Below are positions 3,029 through 20,462 of a stretch of 32,361 bases of DNA, piece after piece. The DNA comes from Erysipelotrichaceae bacterium (GTDB taxonomy: Bacteria > Bacillota_I > Bacilli_A > Erysipelotrichales > Erysipelotrichaceae). Numbering within the stretch: the first letter of the stretch is position 1; each line of letters begins with the position of its first letter. The notes under the pieces are model-generated. The model saw only the letters and a program-made list of their open reading frames with translations, ran no database searches and was not told where the DNA came from. The position numbers and the translations under genes are program-made. The stretch covers positions 1 through 32,361 of the forward strand of contig JARKSP010000004.1 in the NCBI GenBank assembly GCA_029974225.1, given 5' to 3'.

Positions 3029-4108
3029 ATGAAAACATTGATTCTAAGCTGCAATTTTGGACAGGGTCACAACAGTTGCGGGTTAGCAATAAAAGAATAC
3101 TATGAAAGTCAGAATATCGAATGTGAAATGTTAGATTCACTAGCGTTTATAAATAATCTTTTTGCCGAGATACTTAGCAAAGGGCATATCAGCATCTGCA
3201 ACTATGCACCATTTATTTTTGATAAAGGCTATAAAATGGCCGAGAACCATCAGAATTTCTTCAAGGGAGATTCTTTGGCCTTAAAACTGATAAGTAAAAA
3301 ATGTGAAGATTTATATTATTATATTGTCGACAACAATTACAGTCAGGTAATCTGCACCCACGTATTTGCGGGGATGATGATGACAAAAATAAAAAATGAA
3401 TATGATTTGAAATGTAAAACCAGTTTTGTGTTTACTGATTATACCTGCCATCCAGGTTCTAAATACCTGAACGTGGACTATTTCTTTGTGCCTAGTAATT
3501 TTTTAAACGAGGAATTACAGCAGATAGGTATAGCTGAAGAAAAGGTCATTACCAGTGGAATTCCGGTTAAAGACAAGTTCTATAAGAACTATAATTTAAG
3601 AGATGATGGTAAATAGAATATTCTGATTTCTACCGGCTCTCTTGGCGGTGGACCACTAAAAAAAGTTGTCTCAGCCTTATTGAACGATGTTAAAGACGGT
3701 CATATCAGAGTTGTCTGCGGCAAAAATGAAAAACTGAAAAGAAAACTACAGAAAGAATTTGAAGATAATCCGCGTGTTGAGGTACTTGGATATATCAACA
3801 ATATCGATAAACTTATGGATGAAGCGGATGTGTTCATAACCAAACCTGGCGGTATTTCTACTACTGAAGCAGTAAACAAAATCTTGCCAATGTTATTCAT
3901 TAATATTCTTGGAGCTTGTGAAGATTACAATAAACAGTATTTTGTTGACTTGGGCTGTGCCAAAACTCTCGATGATATAAAAGATCTTTCAAAAGAATGC
4001 TATAACCTGCTGAATAACGAAGAAGAATATAAAGAGATTATGGACAATCTGAAAGGCTTGAAAAAGTATAACAGTGCTAAGATAATTTTTGAAACAATGG
4101 CCGAATAG
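3029..4108 (+). pseudogene. MGDG synthase/UgtP-like glycosyltransferase (GT28) interrupted by in-frame TAG
   Basis: Family of diacylglycerol glycosyltransferases that make membrane glycolipids at the inner membrane face, often the anchor of lipoteichoic acid. The N-terminal half has the donor/acceptor fold start with GQGHN at residues 11-15. The C-terminal half has the donor-site signature TKPGGISTTEA. A TAG at 3614-3616 (codon 196) interrupts the gene. Immediately after it the same frame continues with NILISTGSLGGG, the expected interdomain segment, so the total of about 359 codons is normal length and no indel is involved. No ribosome site precedes the second half, so as read only a non-functional N-terminal half would be made. 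A nonsense mutation or a sequence error are both possible. The ribosome site TTGGAGGTG precedes ATG 3029. Confidence 0.8.
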
Positions 4109-5688: not shown

Positions 5689-6966
5689 ATGATTAAAAAA
5701 GCGTATTTATGTATCGATTTAAAATCCTTCTATGCTTCAGTGGAATGTGTGGAAAGAGGGCTGGATCCGATGAAGGCCAACCTGGTTGTCGCGGACAGTG
5801 AAAGAACAGACAAGACCATATGTCTGGCAGTCAGTGTAAATATGAAAAAGTTAGGGGTTAGAAACAGATGCCGGCTCTTTGAAATTCCCAAAAGCATTGA
5901 TTATATCATCGCTACACCGAGAATGCAGAAATATATCGACTACTCCTGTGCGGTCTATGATTTATATCTGGATTACTTTTCCAAGGACGACATCTATGTC
6001 TATTCCATTGATGAGTGTTTTATTGATATAACTTCCTATCTGAACATCTATAGGAAGACTCCCAAAGAGATGGCCAGGTTTCTATTGGAAGAGATAAACA
6101 GAAGAATAGGTATCAGAGCCAGCTGTGGAGTAGGGACAAATCTGTATTTAACCAAGATTGCCTTGGATATTACAGCTAAAAAAGCCGGAGATTTTATTGG
6201 CGAGCTAGATGAGGAAAGCTTTAAGGAAACGTTATGGAATCATCAGCCTCTGACCGATTTCTGGCGCATTGGCTCAGCCACCCAGAGAACGCTCAATGAG
6301 ATGGGTATTTATACGATGGGTCAGATTGCCTGGGCTAATCAGGATCGGCTGTATGAAACCTTTGGCATTGATGCTGAACTTTTGATAGATCATGCCTGGG
6401 GTATTGAGCCGGTTACGCTTGCTGATATCAGGGAATATAAGCCAAAAAGCAATTCTTTCTCTCAGGGTCAGGTTTTAGCCCGGGATTACAGTTATCAGCA
6501 GGCAGAAGTAATCGTTAAGGAAATGATGGATTTACTTGCGCTTCAGCTGGTAGAAAAACAGCTGTATACCTCAAATATTTCGCTAATGATCGGCTACAGT
6601 AACAGATATAATCTGCCTTATTCCTCAGGAAGCATCACACTGGATATGGATACCAACAGTGATACTGTTCTGATTGAAAATGTCGTTAAGCTGTATCGAC
6701 GCCTGGTCAGAAAAGCGGCGATGATAAGAAGAGTCAGCATTTCCTGTAATAAACTGACCAGTACACCGGTTGATTATGTTCAGGTTAATCTTTTTGATGA
6801 AGTAGATACTAAAGATCTTGAAAAAGATAATGCTGCCCAAAAGGCAATTATTGAAATCAAGAAAAGATTTGGCAAAGATGCAATTTTAAAAGGGATGAAT
6901 TTTGAAGAGGGAGCAACTACCAGAGAAAGAAATCATCAGATTGGAGGACATAAGAGTGGCAAATAA
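5689..6966 (+). CDS. Y-family translesion DNA polymerase (UvrX/UmuC-type)
   Basis: Error-prone polymerase of the DinB/UmuC superfamily that copies past damaged template bases. Palm-domain metal ligands are visible: Asp10 in CIDLKSFYASVE, and Asp108-Glu109 in YSIDECFID. The helix-hairpin-helix and little-finger regions follow. QVNLF at 365-369 looks like a beta-clamp binding motif, and the tail FEEGATTRERNHQIGGHK is typical of Bacillus UvrX/YqjW. At 425 aa it is full length for that branch. The next gene starts inside its 3' end and encodes YolD, the usual partner of UvrX-type polymerases, which supports UvrX rather than DinB. Its promoter is an extended -10 with a palindrome at the -35. No LexA-type box was seen, so SOS control is unproven. 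Confidence 0.9.
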   Translation: MIKKAYLCIDLKSFYASVECVERGLDPMKANLVVADSERTDKTICLAVSVNMKKLGVRNRCRLFEIPKSIDYIIATPRMQKYIDYSCAVYDLYLDYFSKDDIYVYSIDECFIDITSYLNIYRKTPKEMARFLLEEINRRIGIRASCGVGTNLYLTKIALDITAKKAGDFIGELDEESFKETLWNHQPLTDFWRIGSATQRTLNEMGIYTMGQIAWANQDRLYETFGIDAELLIDHAWGIEPVTLADIREYKPKSNSFSQGQVLARDYSYQQAEVIVKEMMDLLALQLVEKQLYTSNISLMIGYSNRYNLPYSSGSITLDMDTNSDTVLIENVVKLYRRLVRKAAMIRRVSISCNKLTSTPVDYVQVNLFDEVDTKDLEKDNAAQKAIIEIKKRFGKDAILKGMNFEEGATTRERNHQIGGHKSGK

Positions 6967-7294
6967 ACCAAAAAACAGAATGAGTGTAGCTAACAGAGCC
7001 AAACAGTTTATGCCATTTAGTGCTCTAAGCGGATTTGAAGAAGCTCTGCAGCAGGTGGAAAGGAAAAGAGAAAGAGTAGAGAAAATCGAGCTGTCACAAT
7101 CGCAAAAAGAAAGATTGAACAGCATTATTAGAAGCCTAAAGCTAAATGATGAAATAAAAGTTGAGTATTACGATGGAAATAAGTATCAATTTATCACCGG
7201 ACTATTTAAAAAAGTGGATGAAATATACTATAATATTCATGTTGGGAAAGAAAGAATTGATATTGCATCGATTAAGGAAATTGAGGTTTATTAG
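6956..7294 (+). CDS. YolD-like protein
   Basis: Small partner protein of UvrX-type polymerases. It contains the YolD hallmark NRAKQFMPFSALSGFEEAL, followed by a charged helix and an SH3-like beta segment (IKVEYYDGNKYQFITG). The frame is open back to 6902, but GTG 6956 has TTGGAGG ending 8-9 nt upstream and gives the natural N-terminus ANKPKNRMS, so I chose it (112 aa). It overlaps the polymerase by 11 nt and the next gene by 1 nt, indicating translational coupling. The molecular role of YolD is poorly known; association with translesion polymerases is the family observation. Confidence 0.85.
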   Translation: MANKPKNRMSVANRAKQFMPFSALSGFEEALQQVERKRERVEKIELSQSQKERLNSIIRSLKLNDEIKVEYYDGNKYQFITGLFKKVDEIYYNIHVGKERIDIASIKEIEVY

Positions 7295-10626: not shown

Positions 10627-10644
10627 AATTATCAATTGATAATT
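10627..10644. promoter_or_regulatory. Operator-like palindrome, copy 1, upstream of the Panacea gene
   Basis: AATTATCAATTGATAATT is a perfect 18-bp palindrome. A second copy differing at one base lies with its centre 25 bp downstream. It is the likely binding site for the HTH protein encoded immediately downstream (inference). Confidence 0.65.
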
Positions 10645-10651
10645 ATTTCAA

Positions 10652-10669
10652 AATTATCTATTGATAATT
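10652..10669. promoter_or_regulatory. Operator-like palindrome, copy 2, overlapping the -35 box
   Basis: AATTATCTATTGATAATT differs from copy 1 only at one central base; outer A/T pairing extends it to 10650-10671. Its right half contains the TTGATA -35 at 10661-10666, so occupancy would block the promoter. The T-run after it could also give a weak terminator for the upstream operon. Confidence 0.65.
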
Positions 10670-10688
10670 TTTTAATTTGTGTTATATT
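10661..10688 (+). promoter_or_regulatory. Promoter of the Panacea/HTH gene
   Basis: TTGATA (10661-10666), a 16-nt spacer and TATATT (10683-10688), with TGTGT immediately before the -10 (TRTGn extended -10). The predicted transcription start is about 10694-10696, coinciding with the ATG at 10696. Confidence 0.65.
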
Positions 10689-10695
10689 ATATTTG

Positions 10696-11622
10696 ATGAC
10701 AGAAAACAGGAACCATTATGTATTAAAAAAAAGAAAAACAGAAAAGACTTTCAGAGGAGTACAGGTACAATATAATGAAAATTATTATATCAATCCCAAT
10801 ACCAATGAGGAAGTCTACTTTAGAAGTGCAGAAAAAGAAAATGCCAAGGAACTGGTTGAAGCCTATAAAAAACAGGTTGGCCTGCTTACTTCTAAAGAAA
10901 TAAAAGAAATCAGAAAAAAATACAGGTTAACCCAGCGAGAATATTCCTTTGCCCTTGGTTTGGGAGAGATTACTGTTCATCGTTTTGAAAAAGGTTCAAT
11001 ACAATCGGATGCTGATAATCAGCTGATGATTCTCTCGACTAATCCCAAACACTTTATTAATATGTTAGATGATAACAGAGAGCGTTTTAATAAAGAAAGA
11101 TATAACAAGATTCGCAGGGAGCTAGTTGATAAAATTGCCCTGGGTAAGCATCGGATAGTAAAAATGGATGTTGATGAAATGAGAAAATACAGCATTGTTA
11201 CGACTGACATTGAAGATATTGTTGTTTATATAGTCAATAACTACAATGCTTCAACCATTGATGAAACAACCCTCAATCACTATAAATTACATAAATTTCT
11301 CTATTTTCTGCAGGGGTTAGCACTTTATATCTATAGAAAACCAGTTTTTATTGAAGATATATATACCTCAAAGATAGGACCATATGTTAAAATGTTAAAG
11401 GTGAAGTATGGCGGCAGTGAAGTTAATGTTGAAAAAGAGAAGGTCTATCTCAATACGGCTACTCACAAATTAATCGATCTGATTCTGGAGGAATACGGTA
11501 AATATGACAGCAGCTATCTGTGCAAGCTGACTTTAGAGGAATTCCAGTTCAATGGAAGAGAAGAAAAAATAAGCACTGAACAATTAAGAAATTACTTTAC
11601 CAGAGTATATGAACAACAGTAA
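10696..11622 (+). CDS. MqsA-like HTH protein fused to a Panacea (DUF4065/SocA-like) domain
   Basis: 308 aa. Residues about 15-60 resemble the N-terminal region of MqsA-type antitoxins (TFRGVQVQYNENYYINPNTNEE) but lack the CxxC zinc knuckles. Residues 63-115 are an MqsA-type HTH (LTSKEIKEIRKKYRLTQREY, then GLGEITVHRFEKGSIQ). Residues about 170-305 are a Panacea domain with the signature YKLHKFLYFLQG and later SKIGPYV. Panacea proteins are antitoxins that neutralise many unrelated toxins. Neither neighbour is a recognised toxin: LtaS-like before it, a 5'-nucleotidase 10 nt after it. The open frame reaches TTG 10636, but that stretch contains the operators and promoter. ATG 10696 has no ribosome site and coincides with the predicted +1, so the mRNA may be leaderless. 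Autoregulation through the two palindromes is likely. Confidence 0.8.
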   Translation: MTENRNHYVLKKRKTEKTFRGVQVQYNENYYINPNTNEEVYFRSAEKENAKELVEAYKKQVGLLTSKEIKEIRKKYRLTQREYSFALGLGEITVHRFEKGSIQSDADNQLMILSTNPKHFINMLDDNRERFNKERYNKIRRELVDKIALGKHRIVKMDVDEMRKYSIVTTDIEDIVVYIVNNYNASTIDETTLNHYKLHKFLYFLQGLALYIYRKPVFIEDIYTSKIGPYVKMLKVKYGGSEVNVEKEKVYLNTATHKLIDLILEEYGKYDSSYLCKLTLEEFQFNGREEKISTEQLRNYFTRVYEQQ

Positions 11623-11632
11623 GGAGAAAACT

Positions 11633-13096
11633 ATGAAGAATATCAAAAAACTGACGATATTGCATTCCAATGATCTGCATGGAGATTTTCTGGCCGAGCA
11701 TGTCGACGAGCAGCTGGTCGGTGGAGTTTCACTGTTATCCGGTTATATCAACAAGGTCAGAGATGAAAACAAGAATGTCATCTATGCTATTGCCGGTGAT
11801 ATGTTCAGAGGTTCGGTAATTGACTCTGAGTATAAGGGGATTTCCACCATTGAAATCATGAATGCCTTAGCTCCAGATGTTGTCACAATCGGTAATCATG
11901 AAGTGGACTATGGCATTGCTCATCTGCTGTTTATTGAAAAATGTGCCAAATTCCCTATTATCAACGCCAATATGTACATCAAAACCAATGAATCCAGACT
12001 GTTTAAACCTTACGAAATAATTGAACTTGATGGAATGAAAATCCTCTTTATTGGAATCGTTACTGAAAGTGTTCTGCATTCAGCTAAGCAGGAAGGACTG
12101 ATTGGAACAATTATCAATACTGAAGATGCCGCTAAGGAAGTGGGAAAAATATGCAATGCCTTTAATGGTATTGATATTGACTTTACGGTTCTGCTGACAC
12201 ATATCGGTTTTGAAGAAGACAAAAAACTGGCTCAGATGCTGAAACCTGAATGGGGAGTGGACGTAATTATCGGCGGTCACACGCACACTGTATTAGAACA
12301 GCCGGAAATTGTTAACGGTATTCCGATAGTTCAGGCTGGAACAGGTACTGATGCAATCGGCCGCTTTGATATCGATATTGATACGGACAATAACTGTATT
12401 GATTCATTCACCTGGCAGTTTGTTCCTATCACTGATAAAAACTGTCCGAAAGACTATCAGATTGCGGATATTATTATGGGTTTCAAGAGTATTACCGATT
12501 TAAAATATGGTCGGGTGGTATCAAAATTCAAACATATACTGACGCATCCAAAAAGAAATCAGGAAACGTCATTAGGAAATCTGGTTGCTGATATAATCAG
12601 AGAGTCCTTAGGGCTTGATCTGATGCTCTTTGGCTCAGGGTCTATCAGATGTACAGAACTGGGACCGATTGTAACTTACGGCAAGCTGGCTGAGTGCTTC
12701 CCTTATGTCGGAAAAGTATATCAGATAAACGTTACCGCTGATCAGTTAAGAAAGATGCTGCTTCATGTCTTTAGAGATGAAGCCTGGCAGGGACATACAG
12801 AATTCTATCAGTTTTCCAAAGGAATCAGGATGATTTACTCAAAGTCAAAAAGAGAGTTTAATCTGGCCAAATTAAGAGGTAACGATCTGACGGGAGATAA
12901 GGTATACAGAATCGGAATTCAGGAATTTCACTATATGAACTTTAATGAATTCTTTGGCCTGGATATTAGCGAAACCTATATCAACGGCAAGCCAAGAATT
13001 GTCAGTACCAGTGATTTTGATGTAATAAATGAATATCTGTCTTCACACAACATTATTGATAAGACTGTCGAAGGTCGCTTAATTGTTGTTGAATGA
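11633..13096 (+). CDS. Bifunctional metallophosphatase/5'-nucleotidase family protein
   Basis: 487 aa. The N-terminal calcineurin-like metallophosphatase domain has the metal-binding blocks HSNDLHGD, GDMFRGS, GNHEVDYG, THIGFEED and GGHTHT. The C-terminal 5'-nucleotidase substrate domain contains ETSLGNLVADIIRE and FGSGSIR. Family members hydrolyse nucleoside 5'-phosphates, UDP-sugars or cyclic nucleotides. Unlike UshA/YfkN it has no signal peptide, so it is predicted cytoplasmic. The frame is open from ATG 11609, which overlaps the Panacea gene. ATG 11633 has AAGGAG 6 nt upstream and was chosen. It follows the Panacea gene by 10 nt and probably shares its transcript, which would place it under the same operators (inference). 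Confidence 0.85.
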   Translation: MKNIKKLTILHSNDLHGDFLAEHVDEQLVGGVSLLSGYINKVRDENKNVIYAIAGDMFRGSVIDSEYKGISTIEIMNALAPDVVTIGNHEVDYGIAHLLFIEKCAKFPIINANMYIKTNESRLFKPYEIIELDGMKILFIGIVTESVLHSAKQEGLIGTIINTEDAAKEVGKICNAFNGIDIDFTVLLTHIGFEEDKKLAQMLKPEWGVDVIIGGHTHTVLEQPEIVNGIPIVQAGTGTDAIGRFDIDIDTDNNCIDSFTWQFVPITDKNCPKDYQIADIIMGFKSITDLKYGRVVSKFKHILTHPKRNQETSLGNLVADIIRESLGLDLMLFGSGSIRCTELGPIVTYGKLAECFPYVGKVYQINVTADQLRKMLLHVFRDEAWQGHTEFYQFSKGIRMIYSKSKREFNLAKLRGNDLTGDKVYRIGIQEFHYMNFNEFFGLDISETYINGKPRIVSTSDFDVINEYLSSHNIIDKTVEGRLIVVE

Positions 13097-13131: not shown

Positions 13132-14280
13132 ATGGGACTTATTAGAGCAGGTTTACGTGCCATTTCAGGCACAATGAGAGATCAATGGAAGGAATTCTTC
13201 TATTGCGAAGGTTTAGACGATGATGTATTGGTTGTCAAGGGAACAAAGCAGGTTAGTGGCTTGTTCGCATCAAACAGAGGACATGACAACATCATCTCAA
13301 ACGGTTCAGGTATCGTTGTTAACGAAGGACAGTGCATGATCATTGTTGATAATGGTCAGGTTGTTGAAGTCTGTGCTGAACCAGGTGAATTCACTTATGA
13401 CACATCAAGTGAACCATCATTATTCCATGGTGACTTAGGTGATGCAATTATCAAAACACTGGAAACAATCAAAAACCGTTTTGAAATGGGCGGAGAAGTA
13501 GGAAAGGACCAGAGAGTTTATTATTTCAATACCAAAGAATTATTAGACAATAAATTTGGAACTCCTAACCCAATCATGTTTAGAGTGGTTGATTCAAAGG
13601 TAGGACTGGATCTGGATGTTTCTATCAGAATGGCTGGTGTCTATTCTTACAGAATCGCTGATCCGGTATTGTTCTATACCAATGTTTCTGGCAATGTCGC
13701 TAATGTTTATACCAGAGCGGAAATTGACAATCAGCTGAAGAGTGAATTTCTGTCTGCCTTACAGCCAGCAGTTGGAAAACTGAGTGCTTTAGAGTTAAGA
13801 CCTAACGAAATTGTTAACCACAATTTAGAGTTAGAACAGTATTTAAATCAGGCATTATCAACAAAATGGGGTCAGTTAAGAGGTCTTGAAGTTGTAAATG
13901 TCGCTATTTCAACTGTCACTTTACCAGAAGAAGATGCTAAGGCTATTAAAGATGCTCAATTTGAAAGCAGATATGCTAATGAAGATCTGGCAAGAGCAGC
14001 AGCAGTTGGTGCTCTTAAAGATGCTGCCAGCAATCCTGGCGGAGCAATGACCGGTATTGTTGGTATGGGTGCTGTAGGCGGCGCTGTCGGTGGCCTGGAA
14101 GGCCTGTTTAAAGGCAAACAGGAGACTGCAGGTGGCTGGAAATGCGAATGCGGAAAAGTAAATGATGGTAACTTCTGTTCTAACTGTGGCAAGCCAAAAC
14201 CAGCAGCTGGCTGGAAATGTGCCTGTGGAACAGTGAATGAAGGTAACTTCTGTTCAAATTGCGGTAATAGAAGGCCTTAG
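13132..14280 (+). CDS. SPFH/band-7 protein with two C-terminal zinc ribbons (YdjI-like)
   Basis: 382 aa. Residues about 30-290 form an SPFH-type domain of the YdjI/virion-core-like branch (start MGLIRAGLRAISGTMRDQWKE, later a long helix LPEEDAKAIKDAQFESRYA). An Ala/Gly-rich segment follows, and then two tandem zinc ribbons with Cys338/340/349/352 and Cys363/365/374/377 (CxC...CxxC). SPFH proteins scaffold membrane microdomains. In Bacillus, YdjI sits with YdjG and YdjH in a PspA-linked membrane-stress operon. Homologues of both appear downstream here. Ribosome site AAAGGAGATG. By eye, its frequent TCA, TTA and GGT codons differ from its neighbours and may indicate high expression (inference, not counted). 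The two ribbons are an internal duplication. Confidence 0.85.
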   Translation: MGLIRAGLRAISGTMRDQWKEFFYCEGLDDDVLVVKGTKQVSGLFASNRGHDNIISNGSGIVVNEGQCMIIVDNGQVVEVCAEPGEFTYDTSSEPSLFHGDLGDAIIKTLETIKNRFEMGGEVGKDQRVYYFNTKELLDNKFGTPNPIMFRVVDSKVGLDLDVSIRMAGVYSYRIADPVLFYTNVSGNVANVYTRAEIDNQLKSEFLSALQPAVGKLSALELRPNEIVNHNLELEQYLNQALSTKWGQLRGLEVVNVAISTVTLPEEDAKAIKDAQFESRYANEDLARAAAVGALKDAASNPGGAMTGIVGMGAVGGAVGGLEGLFKGKQETAGGWKCECGKVNDGNFCSNCGKPKPAAGWKCACGTVNEGNFCSNCGNRRP

Positions 14281-14293
14281 AAGGAGGTTCTGA

Positions 14294-15157
14294 ATGGGAT
14301 TATTTGATAAAAAATATTGTGGAGCCTGTGGTAATCAGATCAAATTCCTAGGTGGAAGAAAAGTTGATGATGGTTTAATCTGTAAGGATTGTAACAATAA
14401 ACTTTCTCCATATTTTACAGGAAGAAGAAAAACCAGCTTAAATGATATTAAGGAACAGCTAGCTTACAGAGAAAATAATGCCAAAGAACTATTATCATTT
14501 AATGCGACCGCAGTAGCAGGAAAAGGTCCTAAGGTATATGTTGATGGCAATAAGGGGAAGTTTATAATTTCCAGAACCAGCGATTATATCAAGGAAAACT
14601 GCGACATTATTGATTTAAGCAGCATCATTGCCTTCAATACCAAAATTGATGAGGACAAGGAGGAAATCTTTGATGTCAATGAAGAGGGCAAGAATATTCC
14701 GTACAAACCGCCAAAATATGAATATGAATATGATTTTAAGGTTGAAATGACTTTGAATCATCCTTACATTGATGAAATCAGTTTCTCTTTAGTCGGTATT
14801 AAGCCTACCGATGTCAATTCTGCAGATTTCAAAGAAAAAGAGAAAATCCTGGACGATATTTCAGAGATTCTGATTGGCAAAAGAGGAGTCATAGACAAAA
14901 GCAGTATTTCAGTTGTGGAAAATGCCAATGCTAGTACTCCGGGGCATTTTATCAATGTCATAAGAGGTATTAAAAAACCAGCAAGCGATGGCAGCTGGTA
15001 TTGCCCAAAATGCGGAACAGCTAATACGGCAAACTTCTGCATGCAATGTGGAACGCAGAAACCGGTAGTAGCTGCTAAATTCTGTCCGAACTGCGGTTAC
15101 AGATTTGAAGATGGCAAAACGGTAAAATTCTGTCCACAATGTGGTAAGAAGATTTAA
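14294..15157 (+). CDS. Zinc-ribbon protein (DUF4428-like N-terminus, two C-terminal zinc ribbons)
   Basis: 287 aa, apparently soluble. The N-terminus has a treble-clef-like motif with Cys9, Cys12, Cys30 and Cys33 (YCGACGNQIK...LICKDC) resembling DUF4428. The middle 60-230 is a PH-like or beta-rich region with VDGNKGKFIISRTSDYI and a conserved-looking acidic stretch. The C-terminus has two CxxC...CxxC ribbons (Cys237/240/249/252 and Cys264/267/280/283). It follows the SPFH gene by 13 nt with ribosome site AAGGAGG. Sharing C-terminal zinc ribbons with the SPFH protein suggests a common docking partner (inference). The biochemical role is unknown. Confidence 0.75.
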   Translation: MGLFDKKYCGACGNQIKFLGGRKVDDGLICKDCNNKLSPYFTGRRKTSLNDIKEQLAYRENNAKELLSFNATAVAGKGPKVYVDGNKGKFIISRTSDYIKENCDIIDLSSIIAFNTKIDEDKEEIFDVNEEGKNIPYKPPKYEYEYDFKVEMTLNHPYIDEISFSLVGIKPTDVNSADFKEKEKILDDISEILIGKRGVIDKSSISVVENANASTPGHFINVIRGIKKPASDGSWYCPKCGTANTANFCMQCGTQKPVVAAKFCPNCGYRFEDGKTVKFCPQCGKKI

Positions 15158-15160
15158 CCG

Positions 15161-15646
15161 ATGAGGAAATTTATAGGAGGTTTTTTGGCAATGCTAATAT
15201 TTTTCGAACTGTTAGGTTGCCAAAAAACACCTAACGTTACCGATGATGATGTTGTCTGTTTGAGAATCTCATGCACCCATATGGCCTTTAGCTATTCCTA
15301 TAATTTCAAGATAGGCATTAAAGACGATGTGGTATTATTCAGCTGTGACTGTTCGATTGATAAAGAAAACCATAATGACACCAGGGTATCCTGTGAAAAT
15401 GTGGAAATCGATAATCAATATTTTAGGCAGCTGCTGGAGATACTTAAAAAAAACAATGTCACAGAAACAGTAAGAAAACACAAGAAAAAGATTAACTTAT
15501 TCTTTGTGCCAGATAAAACAGAATACAGTATCAGTTTAAACTTTAAAAATGATGTGCAGCTGAGTGCTGATTTACATTTTGAAGAAGTGTACACATTTTT
15601 GAAGCAATTAGCTAGCTTATATGCTACGGAGGTTACTAATGAGTAA
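15161..15646 (+). CDS. Small predicted lipoprotein
   Basis: 161 aa. MRKFIGGFLAMLIFFELLGC is a short prelipoprotein signal with lipobox LLGC (Cys20); the mature part is outside the membrane. The ATG at 15161 lies 3 nt after the previous stop and lacks a good ribosome site. A GGAGG at 15176-15180 lies inside the signal-peptide codons and could favour ATG 15191, but that start would remove the basic n-region, so 15161 is preferred. The mature domain contains several Cys residues (FSCDCSIDKE, VSCENVEID) and a basic stretch. No family is recognised. It overlaps the next gene by 8 nt. Confidence 0.68.
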   Translation: MRKFIGGFLAMLIFFELLGCQKTPNVTDDDVVCLRISCTHMAFSYSYNFKIGIKDDVVLFSCDCSIDKENHNDTRVSCENVEIDNQYFRQLLEILKKNNVTETVRKHKKKINLFFVPDKTEYSISLNFKNDVQLSADLHFEEVYTFLKQLASLYATEVTNE

Positions 15647-16715
15647 TTTAAAACAGTACAAGTGTCCCAGCTGCGGTGGTCCGATTAATTATGATATAGC
15701 AAGCGGAAATCTTAAATGTCCATATTGTGATTCAGAATTTGATATCGAAACCCTGAAGGGATATGATGAAGATTTAAGAAAGACGGTTGAAGAAGAATTA
15801 AACTGGCTGGATAAGCCCGGTTTAGACTGGACAGAGGAAGAGGAGTCGAAACTGCGTCATTATGTATGTGACAGCTGTGGCGGAGAGATTATTGCCGATG
15901 TCAATACCGGAGCTACCAGGTGTCCTTACTGTGGCAATCCGGTTATCGTGCCGCAGAAGTTCAGCGGCACTTTAAGGCCTGATCTGGTTGTACCTTTTAA
16001 AGTCAGTGATAAACAGGCCCAGGAAGCTTACAGAAACCATCTGAAAGATAAACCTTTGTTGCCTAAGTATTTTAAAGATGAAAATCGTATAAATGAAATA
16101 AAAGGAATCTATGTTCCGTTCTGGCTGTATGATGCAGAGGTTGATATGGCGGCCAGATATCGAACAACAAGGTCGAGAAGCTGGTCTGACTCAAACTACA
16201 TCTATACTGAAACCAGTTATTTTTCAGTTTTCAGGGAAGGTGAGATTGGCTTTGATAATGTACCGGTAGATGGTTCGACAAATATTGACAATGCTTTAAT
16301 GGAATCAATTGAACCATTTGATATAAGTGAAGCAGTAGACTTTAAGACTGCTTATCTGGCAGGCTACCTGGCTGATAAATATGATATTTCAGCTGAGGCC
16401 AGTCAGGAGCAGGCCAACCAGCGTATCAGAAGAAGTGCTGAGAGCGCTTTAGCGACCACTGTTAGAGGTTATGATGGCATTGCTCTGGAGAGTATGAACA
16501 TGTCCTTGAACAATCACACCATTAAGTATTGCCTGTTACCTGTTTATATCTTGAATACCACTTATAAAGGAGAAAAGTTTACCTTTGCGATGAATGGTCA
16601 GACCGGAAAACTGGTGGGGGATTTACCAATCGAGAAAAGTTCCTATGCTATGTACTTTGCGATAATCTTTCTGGTAGTATCAGCGATAGCTTTCATCATT
16701 CAGATGTTTTTATAG
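15639..16715 (+). CDS. YdjG-like double zinc-ribbon membrane protein
   Basis: 358 aa. Two N-terminal zinc ribbons (Cys9/12/27/30 and Cys77/80/95/98; CPSCGG...CPYCDS and CDSCGG...CPYCGN) precede a large beta-rich domain containing VPFWLYDAEVDM and LPVYILNTTYKGEKFTFAMN. One C-terminal transmembrane helix lies at about 336-357 (YFAIIFLVVSAIAFIIQMFL). This is the architecture of Bacillus YdjG, a membrane protein of the ydjFGHI operon thought to recruit PspA. The open frame begins at ATG 15621, but ATG 15639 has ACGGAGGT 6 nt upstream and was chosen. The ribbons should face the cytoplasm, with the tail anchoring the protein (inference). Confidence 0.83.
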   Translation: MSNLKQYKCPSCGGPINYDIASGNLKCPYCDSEFDIETLKGYDEDLRKTVEEELNWLDKPGLDWTEEEESKLRHYVCDSCGGEIIADVNTGATRCPYCGNPVIVPQKFSGTLRPDLVVPFKVSDKQAQEAYRNHLKDKPLLPKYFKDENRINEIKGIYVPFWLYDAEVDMAARYRTTRSRSWSDSNYIYTETSYFSVFREGEIGFDNVPVDGSTNIDNALMESIEPFDISEAVDFKTAYLAGYLADKYDISAEASQEQANQRIRRSAESALATTVRGYDGIALESMNMSLNNHTIKYCLLPVYILNTTYKGEKFTFAMNGQTGKLVGDLPIEKSSYAMYFAIIFLVVSAIAFIIQMFL

Positions 16716-16727
16716 GAGGTTAGTAAA

Positions 16728-17594
16728 ATGAAGAGAATTATTAGATTATTATTAGTTGCATTTGTGCTTACCTTAACCTTTTTGCCGGTATTTACTAAAG
16801 TAAAAGCTGAGCATCCTGAACGAGTAATCGACGAAATGGGATTATTAACTGAAGAGGAAAGACAGGAGCTAGAAGATTTATGTGATGAAGTATCTGAAAG
16901 ACAGCAGGTAGATGTGGTTATTGTTATCTCTGATAAATTCACCTATGACAATATGGTGCAGGAGGCTGACGATTACTATGACTATAATGGCTATGGCTTA
17001 AGACATGATCATTCCGGAAGTCTGCTATTGGTGGGCAAAGACTCCGAAGGCTACTTTGTCTATATCTCTACTTGCGGATATGGAATCTACTGCTATTCGG
17101 ATTATGGTATTGATCATTTAATTGATACAATTGTTGCCAGCTATGATGAGGGCAACAATTGGTTTAACGGTTTAAAAGAATATATTAACAGATGTGATGA
17201 GTTGATTGACATGGCTAATGAAGGAAAGCCATATGACATTTATTTTGATGATCCAGAGCCAGAACCTGAGCCTGATCCTATGGTTGAAACAGCAAAATCA
17301 GCTGGTATATCAGCTGGTTTGGGAGGCATTGCCGCCTTAATTGGAACAACTATCCTGAAAGGCAAGAATAAGAGTGTCTATCACAAGCATGAAGCTAGAG
17401 ATTATGCCAGACCTGGTTCATTCAAATGTTACAACAATCGAGATTTATATTTATATTCCAGAACGACAGCCGCACCACGCCCTAAGCAGACATCCAGCGG
17501 CGGCGGAGGCGGCGGAGGAGGTTTTCGAGGTGGCTCGAGTACTCATACATCCAGTTCTGGCAGAAGCCATGGAGGAGGAGGCAGAAGACTATAA
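16728..17594 (+). CDS. TPM-domain membrane protein (YdjH/YgcG-like)
   Basis: 288 aa. Signal peptide (residues 1-27, likely cleaved after VKA); extracellular TPM domain from about 30 to 165 starting RVIDEMGLLTEEERQELED; an acidic Pro-Glu linker (176-184); one membrane helix at about 191-211. A basic cytoplasmic tail ends in Gly-rich and Ser/His-rich stretches (SSGRSHGGGGRRL). TPM domains are proposed phosphatases and are also found in photosystem and membrane-stress proteins. Bacillus YdjH has the same design. The gene follows the YdjG-like gene by 12 nt with ribosome site TAGGAGG. The glycine tract (about 17500-17525) is G+C-rich triplet DNA within an A+T-rich gene. Confidence 0.85.
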   Translation: MKRIIRLLLVAFVLTLTFLPVFTKVKAEHPERVIDEMGLLTEEERQELEDLCDEVSERQQVDVVIVISDKFTYDNMVQEADDYYDYNGYGLRHDHSGSLLLVGKDSEGYFVYISTCGYGIYCYSDYGIDHLIDTIVASYDEGNNWFNGLKEYINRCDELIDMANEGKPYDIYFDDPEPEPEPDPMVETAKSAGISAGLGGIAALIGTTILKGKNKSVYHKHEARDYARPGSFKCYNNRDLYLYSRTTAAPRPKQTSSGGGGGGGGFRGGSSTHTSSSGRSHGGGGRRL

Positions 17595-18077
17595 ATGGAA
17601 AAAACATTTACTTATGATAGATTACCTCAGAATGTTGAGGAGCTAAAAGCCCTTTCTGATTTACGTGATGCTTTTGAAGTTGCCAGTTTAGTTGTACTGG
17701 TTTTGGCAGCTTATGAGCATGATGTTGAAGAAATGATAAAAATGTACGACTACATCAACGGTCCTGTTGATGTAAGCAAGTATCAGCGACAGTTTATCGA
17801 TGACCGACTGAAAGGAAAAGAATACGTGGCAAGAAGTTATTTCAATGGTACTTCACCAAAAAATAACTATACTCCAGATATTCCTTATGCCGTTACGGTC
17901 AGAGACAACCCTTATTCTTATGATGCAGAAGGGTTTGTAACACTTTTTATCACTTCCAGCGGTGCGGACAGTGATAGAAAAGTACAGTTAAGAAAAAAAG
18001 GAGATCAGTATTTCCTGTGGGAATGCTATTTATGGCCTGACATTAGAATTCCGGTCAAAGATGATCCCTGGGCTTAA
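17595..18077 (+). CDS. DUF6935-like soluble protein
   Basis: 160 aa, no signal or membrane segment. The N-terminus LPQNVEELKALSDLRDAFEV and the conserved-looking C-terminal block RKKGDQYFLWECYLWPDIRI plus KDDPWA match a family I recall as DUF6935, common in gut Bacillota; its function is unknown. The start abuts the TPM stop (17594/17595), and the purine-rich end of the TPM gene supplies GGAGGAGG about 13 nt upstream. It is the last gene before a strong terminator, so it belongs to the SPFH/TPM operon by position. The family name is from memory and should be confirmed. Confidence 0.7.
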   Translation: MEKTFTYDRLPQNVEELKALSDLRDAFEVASLVVLVLAAYEHDVEEMIKMYDYINGPVDVSKYQRQFIDDRLKGKEYVARSYFNGTSPKNNYTPDIPYAVTVRDNPYSYDAEGFVTLFITSSGADSDRKVQLRKKGDQYFLWECYLWPDIRIPVKDDPWA

Positions 18078-18085
18078 CAACTTGT

Positions 18086-18111
18086 AAAAGCGATAGAAAT
18101 ATCGCTTTTTT
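18086..18111 (+). terminator. Intrinsic terminator closing the SPFH/TPM operon
   Basis: AAAAGCGATA-GAAA-TATCGCTTTT is a 10-bp perfect stem with a GAAA (GNRA) tetraloop, ending in TTTTTT. Confidence 0.88.
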
Positions 18112-18198: not shown

Positions 18199-19053
18199 AT
18201 GTATAAAATTTTGTCAAGAAAAGCATTGAACAGTTCCGTTACAATGCTTGAAGTATTAGCACCATTGGTAGCTAAAAAAGCTAAACCTGGTCAGTTCATT
18301 ATATTAAGAGTTGACGAAGATGGTGAAAGAATTCCATTGACCGTAGCAGGCACAAATCCGGAAACCGGAGCTGTAAAAATTATTTTCCAGGTAGTAGGTG
18401 GAACTACTGAAAAATTAAATCATCTGCTGGAAGGTGAATATATTCAGGACTTTGTTGGTCCGCTTGGTTCACCTAGCCAGCTTGAAGGGCTAAAAAAAGT
18501 GTGCATTGTCGGTGGAGGGGTAGGCTGTGCTATTGCCTTACCGCTTGCTGAAGCTTTGAATGCTAAGGGTGCCCATGTGACAAGTATCATTGGTTTCAGA
18601 AATAAAGATATTCTGATTTTAGAAGATGAATTCAATGCCTGCTCAGATAAGCTGATTGTTACTACTGATGATGGCAGTTACGGTTATCATGGCAATGTAA
18701 CAATGCCTTTGAAAGAGATTCTGGAATCTGGTGAGACATTTGATGAAATCATAACGATCGGACCAATCATTATGATGAAGTTTGTGGTAGCTACGGCCAA
18801 GCAGTTTAATGTTCCGTGTACAGTAAGTATGAACCCTATTATGATTGATGGTACCGGTATGTGTGGCTGCTGCCGATTGACTCTTAATCAGGATGGTAAA
18901 AGAATCACCAGGTTTGCCTGCGTTGATGGACCTGATTTCAATGGTTATGAAGTTGATTTTGATGAAGCATTGTCCCGCTCAGGAATGTATGCGGATTTTG
19001 AAAGACATGCCCGTGAAAAGACCTGTAATTTGTTCAAGAAGGAGGTTCAGTGA
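18199..19053 (+). CDS. nfnA: NfnA-type FAD/NAD-binding subunit (NADH-dependent ferredoxin:NADP+ oxidoreductase)
   Basis: 284 aa sulfide/dihydroorotate dehydrogenase-like FAD/NAD-binding protein. The ferredoxin-reductase-like N-terminal FAD domain includes PGQFIILRVDEDGERIPLT. The NAD-binding glycine motif VGGGVGC is at 104-110. A C-terminal [2Fe-2S] region has Cys222, Cys224, Cys225 and Cys241 (GTGMCGCCRLT...FACVDGP). With the adjacent NfnB it would form the cytoplasmic flavin-bifurcating enzyme linking NADH, ferredoxin and NADPH. Ribosome site CAGGAGG. It overlaps the GTG that precedes NfnB. The same fold occurs as PyrK, but the neighbour settles it as NfnA/SudB type. Confidence 0.85.
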   Translation: MYKILSRKALNSSVTMLEVLAPLVAKKAKPGQFIILRVDEDGERIPLTVAGTNPETGAVKIIFQVVGGTTEKLNHLLEGEYIQDFVGPLGSPSQLEGLKKVCIVGGGVGCAIALPLAEALNAKGAHVTSIIGFRNKDILILEDEFNACSDKLIVTTDDGSYGYHGNVTMPLKEILESGETFDEIITIGPIIMMKFVVATAKQFNVPCTVSMNPIMIDGTGMCGCCRLTLNQDGKRITRFACVDGPDFNGYEVDFDEALSRSGMYADFERHAREKTCNLFKKEVQ

Positions 19054-19055
19054 TT

Positions 19056-20462
19056 ATGGCAATTATTCCTAATAAAAATCCTATGCCGGTTCAGGATGCT
19101 GAATCAAGAAGCAGAAATTTTGAAGAAGTTGCTTTAGGTTATAGTGAAGAAGCCGCCGTGGCAGAAGCGGAAAGATGCATTAACTGCAAAAACAGACCCT
19201 GTGTTGCCGGCTGTCCGGTTAATATACAGATACCTGAATTCATTATGAAAATTAAAGAACGGGATTTTGAGGGCGCATATCAGATTATTGCGGAATCTTC
19301 TTCTTTACCAGCAGTCTGCGGCCGTGTCTGTCCGCAGGAAACTCAGTGTGAGGGCAAATGTACCTTAGGCATCAGATTTGAACCGGTAGGTATTGGCAGA
19401 CTAGAGCGTTTTGCAGCTGACTATCATCTTGCAAATGTCAAAGAGGCTCCAGTCAAGCCTGAACCAAATGGCAAGAAGGTTGCGGTTGTAGGTTCAGGGC
19501 CTGCTGGCCTGACCTGTGCCGGTGATTTAGCTAAGAAAGGCTACGATGTAACAATTTATGAAGCTTTGCACCTGGCTGGCGGGGTATTAGTCTATGGTAT
19601 TCCGGAATTCAGATTGCCGGTTGATATTGTAAGTCAGGAAGTTGATGTGCTAAAACAGTTGGGGGTAAAAGTTGAAACCAATGTTGTTATCGGCAAAACC
19701 TTAACAATTGATGATTTGTTTGAGATGGGCTTTAAGGCAGTGTTTATCGGTTCTGGAGCCGGTCTACCTAACTTTATGAATATTCCCGGAGAAGGATTAA
19801 AAGGAGTCTACTCAGCTACTGAATTTCTGACCAGAGCTCATCTGATGAAAGCAGATCTGTAAAGTAGTGATACACCAATTTCTAAGGGAGGTAAGGTGGC
19901 TGTGGTCGGTGGCGGCAATGTAGCCATGGATGCGGCCAGAACAGCTTTAAGACTAGGAGCGGATAAGGTTTATATCGTCTATCGTCGTTCAATGGAAGAA
20001 CTTCCGGCCAGAAAAGAAGAAGTAGAACATGCTCAGGAAGAAGGAATCGATTTCAGATTGCTGAATAATCCGGTTGAAATACTAGGTTATCGCAATCCGG
20101 ATAATCCTAGAGATCCTAAAAATGGCTGTGTTGAAGCTATCAGATGTATCAGAATGGAACTGGGTGAGCCGGATGAAAAAGGAAGAAGAAGACCTGTCGC
20201 TATTCCCGGCAGCGAGTTTATCTTAGATGTTGATACAGTGATTATGGCTATTGGCACCTCACCAAATCCATTAATTAAAAACACTACTGAAGGCTTGGAA
20301 GTTAACAGATGGGGTGGAATCATCGTTAATGAAGAGAACCTTACCAGTAGAGAAGGAATTTATGCTGGCGGAGATGTTGTTACCGGTTCCGCAACAGTTA
20401 TTTCAGCTATGGGTGCCGGAAAAATTGCTGCTCAGGGAATTGATGATTACCTGAGTAAATAG
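19056..20462 (+). pseudogene. nfnB: NfnB-type (GltA-like) subunit interrupted by in-frame TAA
   Basis: FAD/NADPH-binding iron-sulfur subunit of the Nfn complex, homologous to the glutamate synthase small subunit. The N-terminal [4Fe-4S] region has CINCKNRPCVAGCP (41-53) and CGRVCPQETQCEGKC (88-102); the FAD motif VAVVGSGPAG is at 142-151. The NADPH Rossmann motif VAVVGGGNVAMDAA begins at codon 281. A TAA at 19860-19862 (codon 269) interrupts it, but the frame continues directly with SSDTPISKGG and total length (about 468 codons) is normal. AAGGGAGGT at 19884-19892 followed by GTG 19902 (9 nt) could restart translation of the C-terminal half. ATG 19056 was chosen because AAGGAGGT ends 9 nt upstream. 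Sequence error, pseudogene and true split gene remain open. Confidence 0.82.

Follow-up and report, generated by a model that had tools for sequence, protein, structure and literature searches.

The closest described relatives of the gene studied here are the MqsR:PanA toxin-antitoxin systems (ZBD-HTH-Panacea), for example MqsR_D2:PanA of Bacillus fungorum, which share with it the order N-terminal MqsA-like domain, HTH, Panacea (PMC10440598). In these systems the HTH has been described as an autoregulator; in B. fungorum it is the zinc-binding domain, not Panacea, that neutralises MqsR, and Panacea has been proposed to act as a sensor (PMC10440598). Antitoxins co-opted as transcription factors are a recognised kind of regulator, reviewed in PMC8987985. 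A second point of comparison is the envelope-stress operon pspA-ydjGHI of Bacillus subtilis, in which YdjI, YdjG and YdjH serve as membrane anchors for PspA (PMC8581546, PMC9239133, PMC11237479). We analysed a stretch of 32,361 nucleotides from an Erysipelotrichaceae bacterium (the window) that carries an HTH-Panacea gene with twin palindromes at its promoter (Table 1). The gene probably encodes a domesticated former antitoxin, with its Panacea motifs lost, that serves as the autorepressor of a putative SPFH membrane operon.

Table 1. Features of the regulator locus and of the genes downstream, in coordinates of the window
Feature	Position	Strand	Basis or remark
Distal operator palindrome AATTATCAATTGATAATT	10627..10644	.	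Perfect; 7/7 congeners; sister MqsR/PanA loci have the identical operator once
Proximal operator palindrome AATTATCTATTGATAATT, holding the -35 box	10652..10669	.	Repeat comparison, congener conservation
Promoter TTGATA-N16-TATATT, TG before the -10	10661..10688	+	-35 within the proximal palindrome
Putative autorepressor, toxin-less MqsA-type HTH + Panacea protein, 308 aa	10696..11622	+	Profile matches, AlphaFold2 model
HTH recognition-helix region, residues 84-104	10945..11007	+	Best-conserved part of the protein
Divergent Panacea domain, residues ~172-306	11209..11613	+	AWxxGPV and THxExPW stretches lost
UshA-like 5'-nucleotidase, 10 bp after the regulator	11633..13096	+	Profile match
SPFH/Band_7_1 protein with C-terminal zinc ribbons (YdjI type)	13132..14280	+	After the regulator, directly or past the nucleotidase, in 7/7 congeners
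DUF4428 + double zinc ribbon protein	14294..15157	+	
Small putative lipoprotein	15161..15646	+	
Double zinc ribbon membrane protein (YdjG type)	15621..16715	+	
TPM-domain protein (YdjH type)	16728..17594	+	
DUF6935 protein, closing the putative operon	17595..18077	+	
Hairpin AAAAGCGATA-GAAA-TATCGCTTTT + T run, likely operon end	18086..18111	+	Read from the sequence; unlisted by the terminator scan

A preliminary description of this DNA had begun the gene at 10627-10636. Within the open reading frame 10636-11622, the ATG at 10696 is the likeliest start; the -10 box ends seven bases 5' of it, and given this proximity the regulator message is likely to be nearly leaderless. The same description had joined an MqsA-type HTH without the usual zinc knuckles to a Panacea domain, and this architecture was borne out. 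The NCBIfam profile of MqsA family antitoxins (TIGR03830) was passed with 67.0 bits (cut-off 61.8), and no cysteine is present in residues 1-45, so that the two CxxC zinc knuckles of the MqsA family are absent. The Pfam MqsA profile gave 27.5 bits (cut-off 30). SocA_Panacea (PF13274) scored 25.0 bits at residues 198-282 against a cut-off of 25.7; in a six-frame search Panacea rose above the cut-off (28 bits), and it was matched by all 23 relatives at E<=0.01. A confident AlphaFold2 model of the protein (pLDDT 90.6, pTM 0.71) has a hairpin of two strands at the N-terminus, then an HTH (63-126), and a helical domain at the C-terminus. The HTH superposes closely on HigA2 (Z 10.1, 1.2 A over 64 residues). 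In the structure comparison the best match was E. coli MqsA (YgiT; 3gn5), which aligned with residues 4-124 (Foldseek E 5.7e-4); when the two structures were compared, Z was 8.8 and the rmsd 11.2, the matching domains being differently placed. For the Panacea half (residues 170-304) a chain of a DarTG complex, 7yk3_B, was alone in covering the domain (Z 8.0, rmsd 4.2) and was set aside as too weak. PADLOC gave zero matches for the four proteins tested. The protein encoded at 10696-11622 also matches PHROG 10390 (function unassigned) over almost its full length (E 1.6e-23), which indicates that phages carry the same HTH-Panacea architecture.

Upstream of the gene, the preliminary description had reported two near-identical 18-bp palindromes with centres 25 bp apart, and our repeat comparison confirmed them, with 91% identity across 23 nt. 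Its statement that they overlap the -35 region holds for the proximal palindrome, which contains TTGATA (10661-10666, with the -10 box TATATT at 10683-10688), but not for the distal one. The operator core ATTATCNATNGATAAT has two exact sites in the 1.57-Mb genome of the window, both at the regulator promoter. Among 273 genomes of the family, the twin arrangement was found in six, all of the regulator's genus, and a control pattern in 0; the seventh congener has a degenerate palindrome pair. The twin palindromes are not due to chance. All seven congeners have a TTGATA-N16-TATANT promoter, which scored 10-11 points where shuffled sequence averaged 8.5-8.9, and in each of them a conserved palindromic operator of autoregulatory look overlaps the gene's own promoter. 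The cooperativity that had been expected of the twin palindromes does not follow from geometry, since 25 bp corresponds to about 2.4 helical turns. When 395 genomes of the class were scanned, four contained the exact 20-bp operator; two of these are members of the genus, a third has it at a sister toxin-antitoxin locus, and in the fourth (G461) the site lies inside a helicase gene and was dismissed as chance. A wider regulon was likewise rejected, as scans allowing two mismatches yielded counts little above a reversed-pattern control; the sole near-match in the genome of the window (C97:15868, ~33 bp before a RapZ-like gene) had no counterpart among the congener matches.

Palindromes of this kind could also act in RNA, as a terminator or attenuator, rather than as operators; they can form AT-rich stem-loops, and the second is followed by a T run. 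Each stem, however, has one G-C pair, the -35 box lies inside the proximal palindrome in all seven congeners, and the spacing of 25-26 bp has been kept across the genus although the flanks diverge. Moreover, the identical site stands before the toxin genes of a sister clade (see below) although the upstream genes differ. We consider a role as RNA hairpins very improbable. As operators, the palindromes would each be bound by a dimer of the HTH, and occupancy of the proximal site would cover the -35 box and repress the regulator's own promoter.

Orthologues of the regulator were present in all seven genomes of the genus, the six others being 37-82% identical to the window protein, at one chromosomal place and on the same strand, in the order mnmM - regulator - (5'-nucleotidase) - SPFH - zinc ribbons - TPM. 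The seven species share one insertion event: the regulator-SPFH linkage is one evolutionary observation, not seven. No toxin gene adjoins the regulator in any of the seven genomes. The preliminary description had offered the LtaS-like gene and the 5'-nucleotidase as overlooked partners, and this proposal was not upheld. Four genomes have the LtaS-like gene between mnmM and the regulator, and in three it is missing there; the nucleotidase follows the regulator in five and is absent in the two most divergent congeners, where the SPFH gene comes directly after the regulator at 60-63 bp. What the suggested neighbourhood survey did reveal, in place of the neighbours first named, is a conserved cluster downstream, composed of the SPFH, zinc-ribbon and TPM genes. 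The gap from the regulator to the next gene is 10-17 nt or 60-63 nt; in L037 and L038 a small hairpin without a T run lies between the regulator and the SPFH gene. Elsewhere in the genome of the window (G000) an MqsR homologue was not found, the metagenome-assembled genomes of the set being 80-99% complete. Two candidates for a toxin elsewhere were rejected: in G003 the MqsR-like match is the C-terminal part of an unlinked gene (L075 1465-2205, G003:C27; 246 aa) without an adjacent MqsA-type gene, and in G002 the match was marginal (E 0.008). On the other side of mnmM, two congeners only (L034 3895-5854 and L035 4214-6173) carry a two-gene insert between it and a YolD-like gene; the products, of 432 and 222 aa, are by eye Mur-ligase-like and glutamine-amidotransferase-like.

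GTDB genome contigs were then scanned for the nearest relatives outside the genus, which proved to be from uncultured Bacilli and Candidatus Onthousia (L059-L066). The full-length proteins are 32-35% identical to the regulator, and the sister-clade antitoxins are also without zinc cysteines. Wherever the upstream region of a full-length sister locus is complete (L060, with L061 as its near copy, and L062, L063, L064 and L066; L059 is cut by the contig end), a gene of 106-109 aa precedes the antitoxin. By sequence its product matches the MqsR profile weakly; its AlphaFold2 model (pLDDT 92) has as best Foldseek match E. coli MqsR 3hi2 (probability 1.00, TM 0.64-0.73). Upstream of this toxin gene lies AAAATTATCAATTGATAATTTT, the identical palindrome in single copy, and it sits just upstream of the -10 box, like the proximal site in the window. 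Among the more distant, zinc-bearing relatives, palindromes are either different or missing. In the tree the genus (support 99/96), the sister clade (98/99) and the zinc-bearing relatives (98/95) were each recovered, and genus and sister were joined (98/95) with the zinc-bearing relatives outside. Since the zinc-less genus and sister group jointly, apart from the zinc-bearing relatives, the loss of the zinc site is older than that of the toxin.

Because the same palindrome stands singly before the sister toxins, loss of the toxin gene and doubling of the operator most probably took place in the genus ancestor and left the antitoxin directly behind the old autoregulated promoter. The regulator gene accordingly descends from the antitoxin of an MqsR/MqsA-Panacea (PanAT-type) operon. 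Support is good for this ancestry, for the loss of the toxin and for the identity of the operator. Among the fates that had been considered for the toxin, loss is thus the one that agrees with an MqsR-fold toxin behind the same operator in the sister loci. That homologues always come with a toxin is true of the sister clade, whereas all seven species of the genus are toxin-less, and the comparison indicates that the toxin-less state is old and fixed in the genus, not a local rearrangement. At L065 9962-10420 a sister antitoxin is cut to its N-terminal and HTH part (152 aa), without toxin, Panacea domain or upstream palindrome, perhaps through independent decay. A Y-family DNA polymerase gene followed by a YolD-like gene (window 5689-7294) recurs as the same pair at L041 148-1826, close to a zinc-bearing MqsR/PanA pair. 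At L049 119-1315 (G028:C363) a DUF4428/zinc-ribbon protein resembling that of window 14294-15157 is encoded ~4 kb from a zinc-bearing PanA gene, which is probably a coincidence.

Identity in the recognition-helix region was 82% in deep genus pairs and 70% between genus and sister, and in Panacea 35% and 31%, respectively. The stretches AWxxGPV and THxExPW were kept in all six sister sequences and lost in all seven genus proteins; their counterparts in the window protein are YTSKIGPYV and LTLEEFQFNG. In every domain of the regulator, pN was 0.03-0.19 versus a pS of 0.33-1.0, and w was 0.03-0.13 where computable, synonymous sites being saturated in most pairs. The regulator is under purifying selection in every domain. 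On the sequence evidence, this pattern of conservation agrees with selection for DNA binding and with retention of Panacea for a task different from its original one.

Downstream, the gaps between the genes of the putative operon are <=35 bp. In a promoter scan before the SPFH gene, the best site was at chance level in 7/7 congeners, while the regulator promoter stood out. A simple scan of this type can miss real promoters, and since it was also unimpressive before most SPFH genes of the outgroup, we take the result as supporting rather than strong evidence. A shared switch over the SPFH, zinc-ribbon, TPM and DUF6935 genes is suggested because they lie close behind and no promoter of their own is recognisable. 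We infer that the switch which controls the regulator most likely also sets, by read-through and co-transcription, the level of this membrane-maintenance operon, and control of the SPFH operon by the regulator seems to us reasonably likely, even if the linkage could reflect ancestral synteny alone. In other genera the SPFH-zinc-ribbon-TPM cluster occurs without an MqsA/Panacea regulator, which is thus not a required partner. In G046, of the same order, PspA, SPFH, YdjG-like and TPM genes stand in a row; PspA (PF04012) was detected in 0/7 genomes of the genus and in 9/14 control genomes. Beyond the cluster, a glutamate-synthase-small-subunit-like gene (Fer4_20 + Pyr_redox_2; window 19050-20462) is interrupted by one in-frame TAA (position 19860), and its counterpart in L033 is one uninterrupted frame, the split being either a real nonsense change or an assembly error. 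A second gene (window 3029-4108) is divided by one in-frame TAG, at position 3614, and is likewise uninterrupted in L033.

The regulator might instead be a self-limiting relic, that is, a solitary antitoxin repressing only itself while the downstream genes have promoters of their own, and persisting because it does no harm or because it guards against MqsR toxins that arrive from outside (anti-addiction). There is precedent for solitary antitoxins (PMC3874152), and this reading would agree both with the location of the two exact operator sites of the genome at the regulator's own promoter and with the existence of the cluster without a regulator in other genera. Yet the gene has been kept in 7/7 species with purifying selection, it has lost the Panacea stretches of its toxin-paired relatives, unlike a protein still selected for neutralisation, and no promoter-like site rises above chance before the SPFH gene of the genus. 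We regard a relic as unlikely. It is less likely still that the protein has remained an antitoxin and swapped partners, its toxin now being a non-homologous gene elsewhere or downstream, such as that for the DUF6935 or the DUF4428 zinc-ribbon protein. Panacea antitoxins do pair with many unrelated toxins (PMC8832971, PMC10440598), and the zinc-ribbon genes travel with the regulator. Against such a swap, the SPFH, YdjG-type and TPM genes are antitoxin-free in other genera and therefore improbable as addictive toxins, no gene forms a two-gene toxin-antitoxin layout with the regulator in all seven genomes, and the search of the window's genome for an MqsR homologue was negative.

If the regulator is a domesticated antitoxin in control of the SPFH operon, its divergent Panacea domain is a candidate sensor that might respond to a ligand, to the state of the membrane or to a product of the operon. 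This role for Panacea is put forward tentatively, and more speculatively the doubled operator may replace the regulatory contribution that the toxin makes in toxin-antitoxin systems. Equally tentative is the fuller picture, in which an SPFH/TPM membrane-stress operon without PspA is governed by a toxin-free Panacea-HTH protein, a one-component sensor-regulator. Should the sensor reading be true, the locus would offer a natural case for studying Panacea sensing apart from any toxin. The dropping of the toxin, with HTH, Panacea and operator kept, indicates that regulation was separable from neutralisation in this lineage, and makes the sensor proposal for Panacea (PMC10440598) testable in a simple reporter system. 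In our literature search no report of a toxin-free Panacea regulator was found, which is not proof of absence. What appears new is that the case involves Panacea, that the duplicated operator can be traced, and that the protein, as a candidate regulator, is linked to a YdjI/G/H-type operon lacking PspA.

Compared with the MqsR:PanA systems, the sister loci are alike in having an MqsR-fold toxin directly upstream, whereas the window locus has no toxin and no zinc cysteines, has lost the Panacea stretches and carries a doubled operator; its gene is moreover fixed at one chromosomal site with the SPFH operon behind it. Unlike E. coli MqsA (YgiT; 3gn5), the regulator is without zinc site and toxin and has gained a Panacea domain, and its operator is AATTATCNATNGATAATT. 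The downstream genes resemble the B. subtilis pspA-ydjGHI operon in that genes for a band-7 protein with zinc ribbon (YdjI), a membrane protein with two zinc ribbons (YdjG) and a TPM protein (YdjH) occur together in the window; they differ from it in the antitoxin-type regulator at the head, the extra DUF4428 and DUF6935 genes and the lack of a detectable PspA in the seven genus genomes. Finally, as in the co-opted antitoxins reviewed in PMC8987985, an HTH antitoxin has parted from its toxin and been kept as a probable regulator. Unlike in those cases, Panacea has been retained and the ancestral operator, here duplicated, can be traced to a sister clade whose members still bear the toxin, so that the domestication of this antitoxin can be followed from relatives in which the ancestral arrangement persists.
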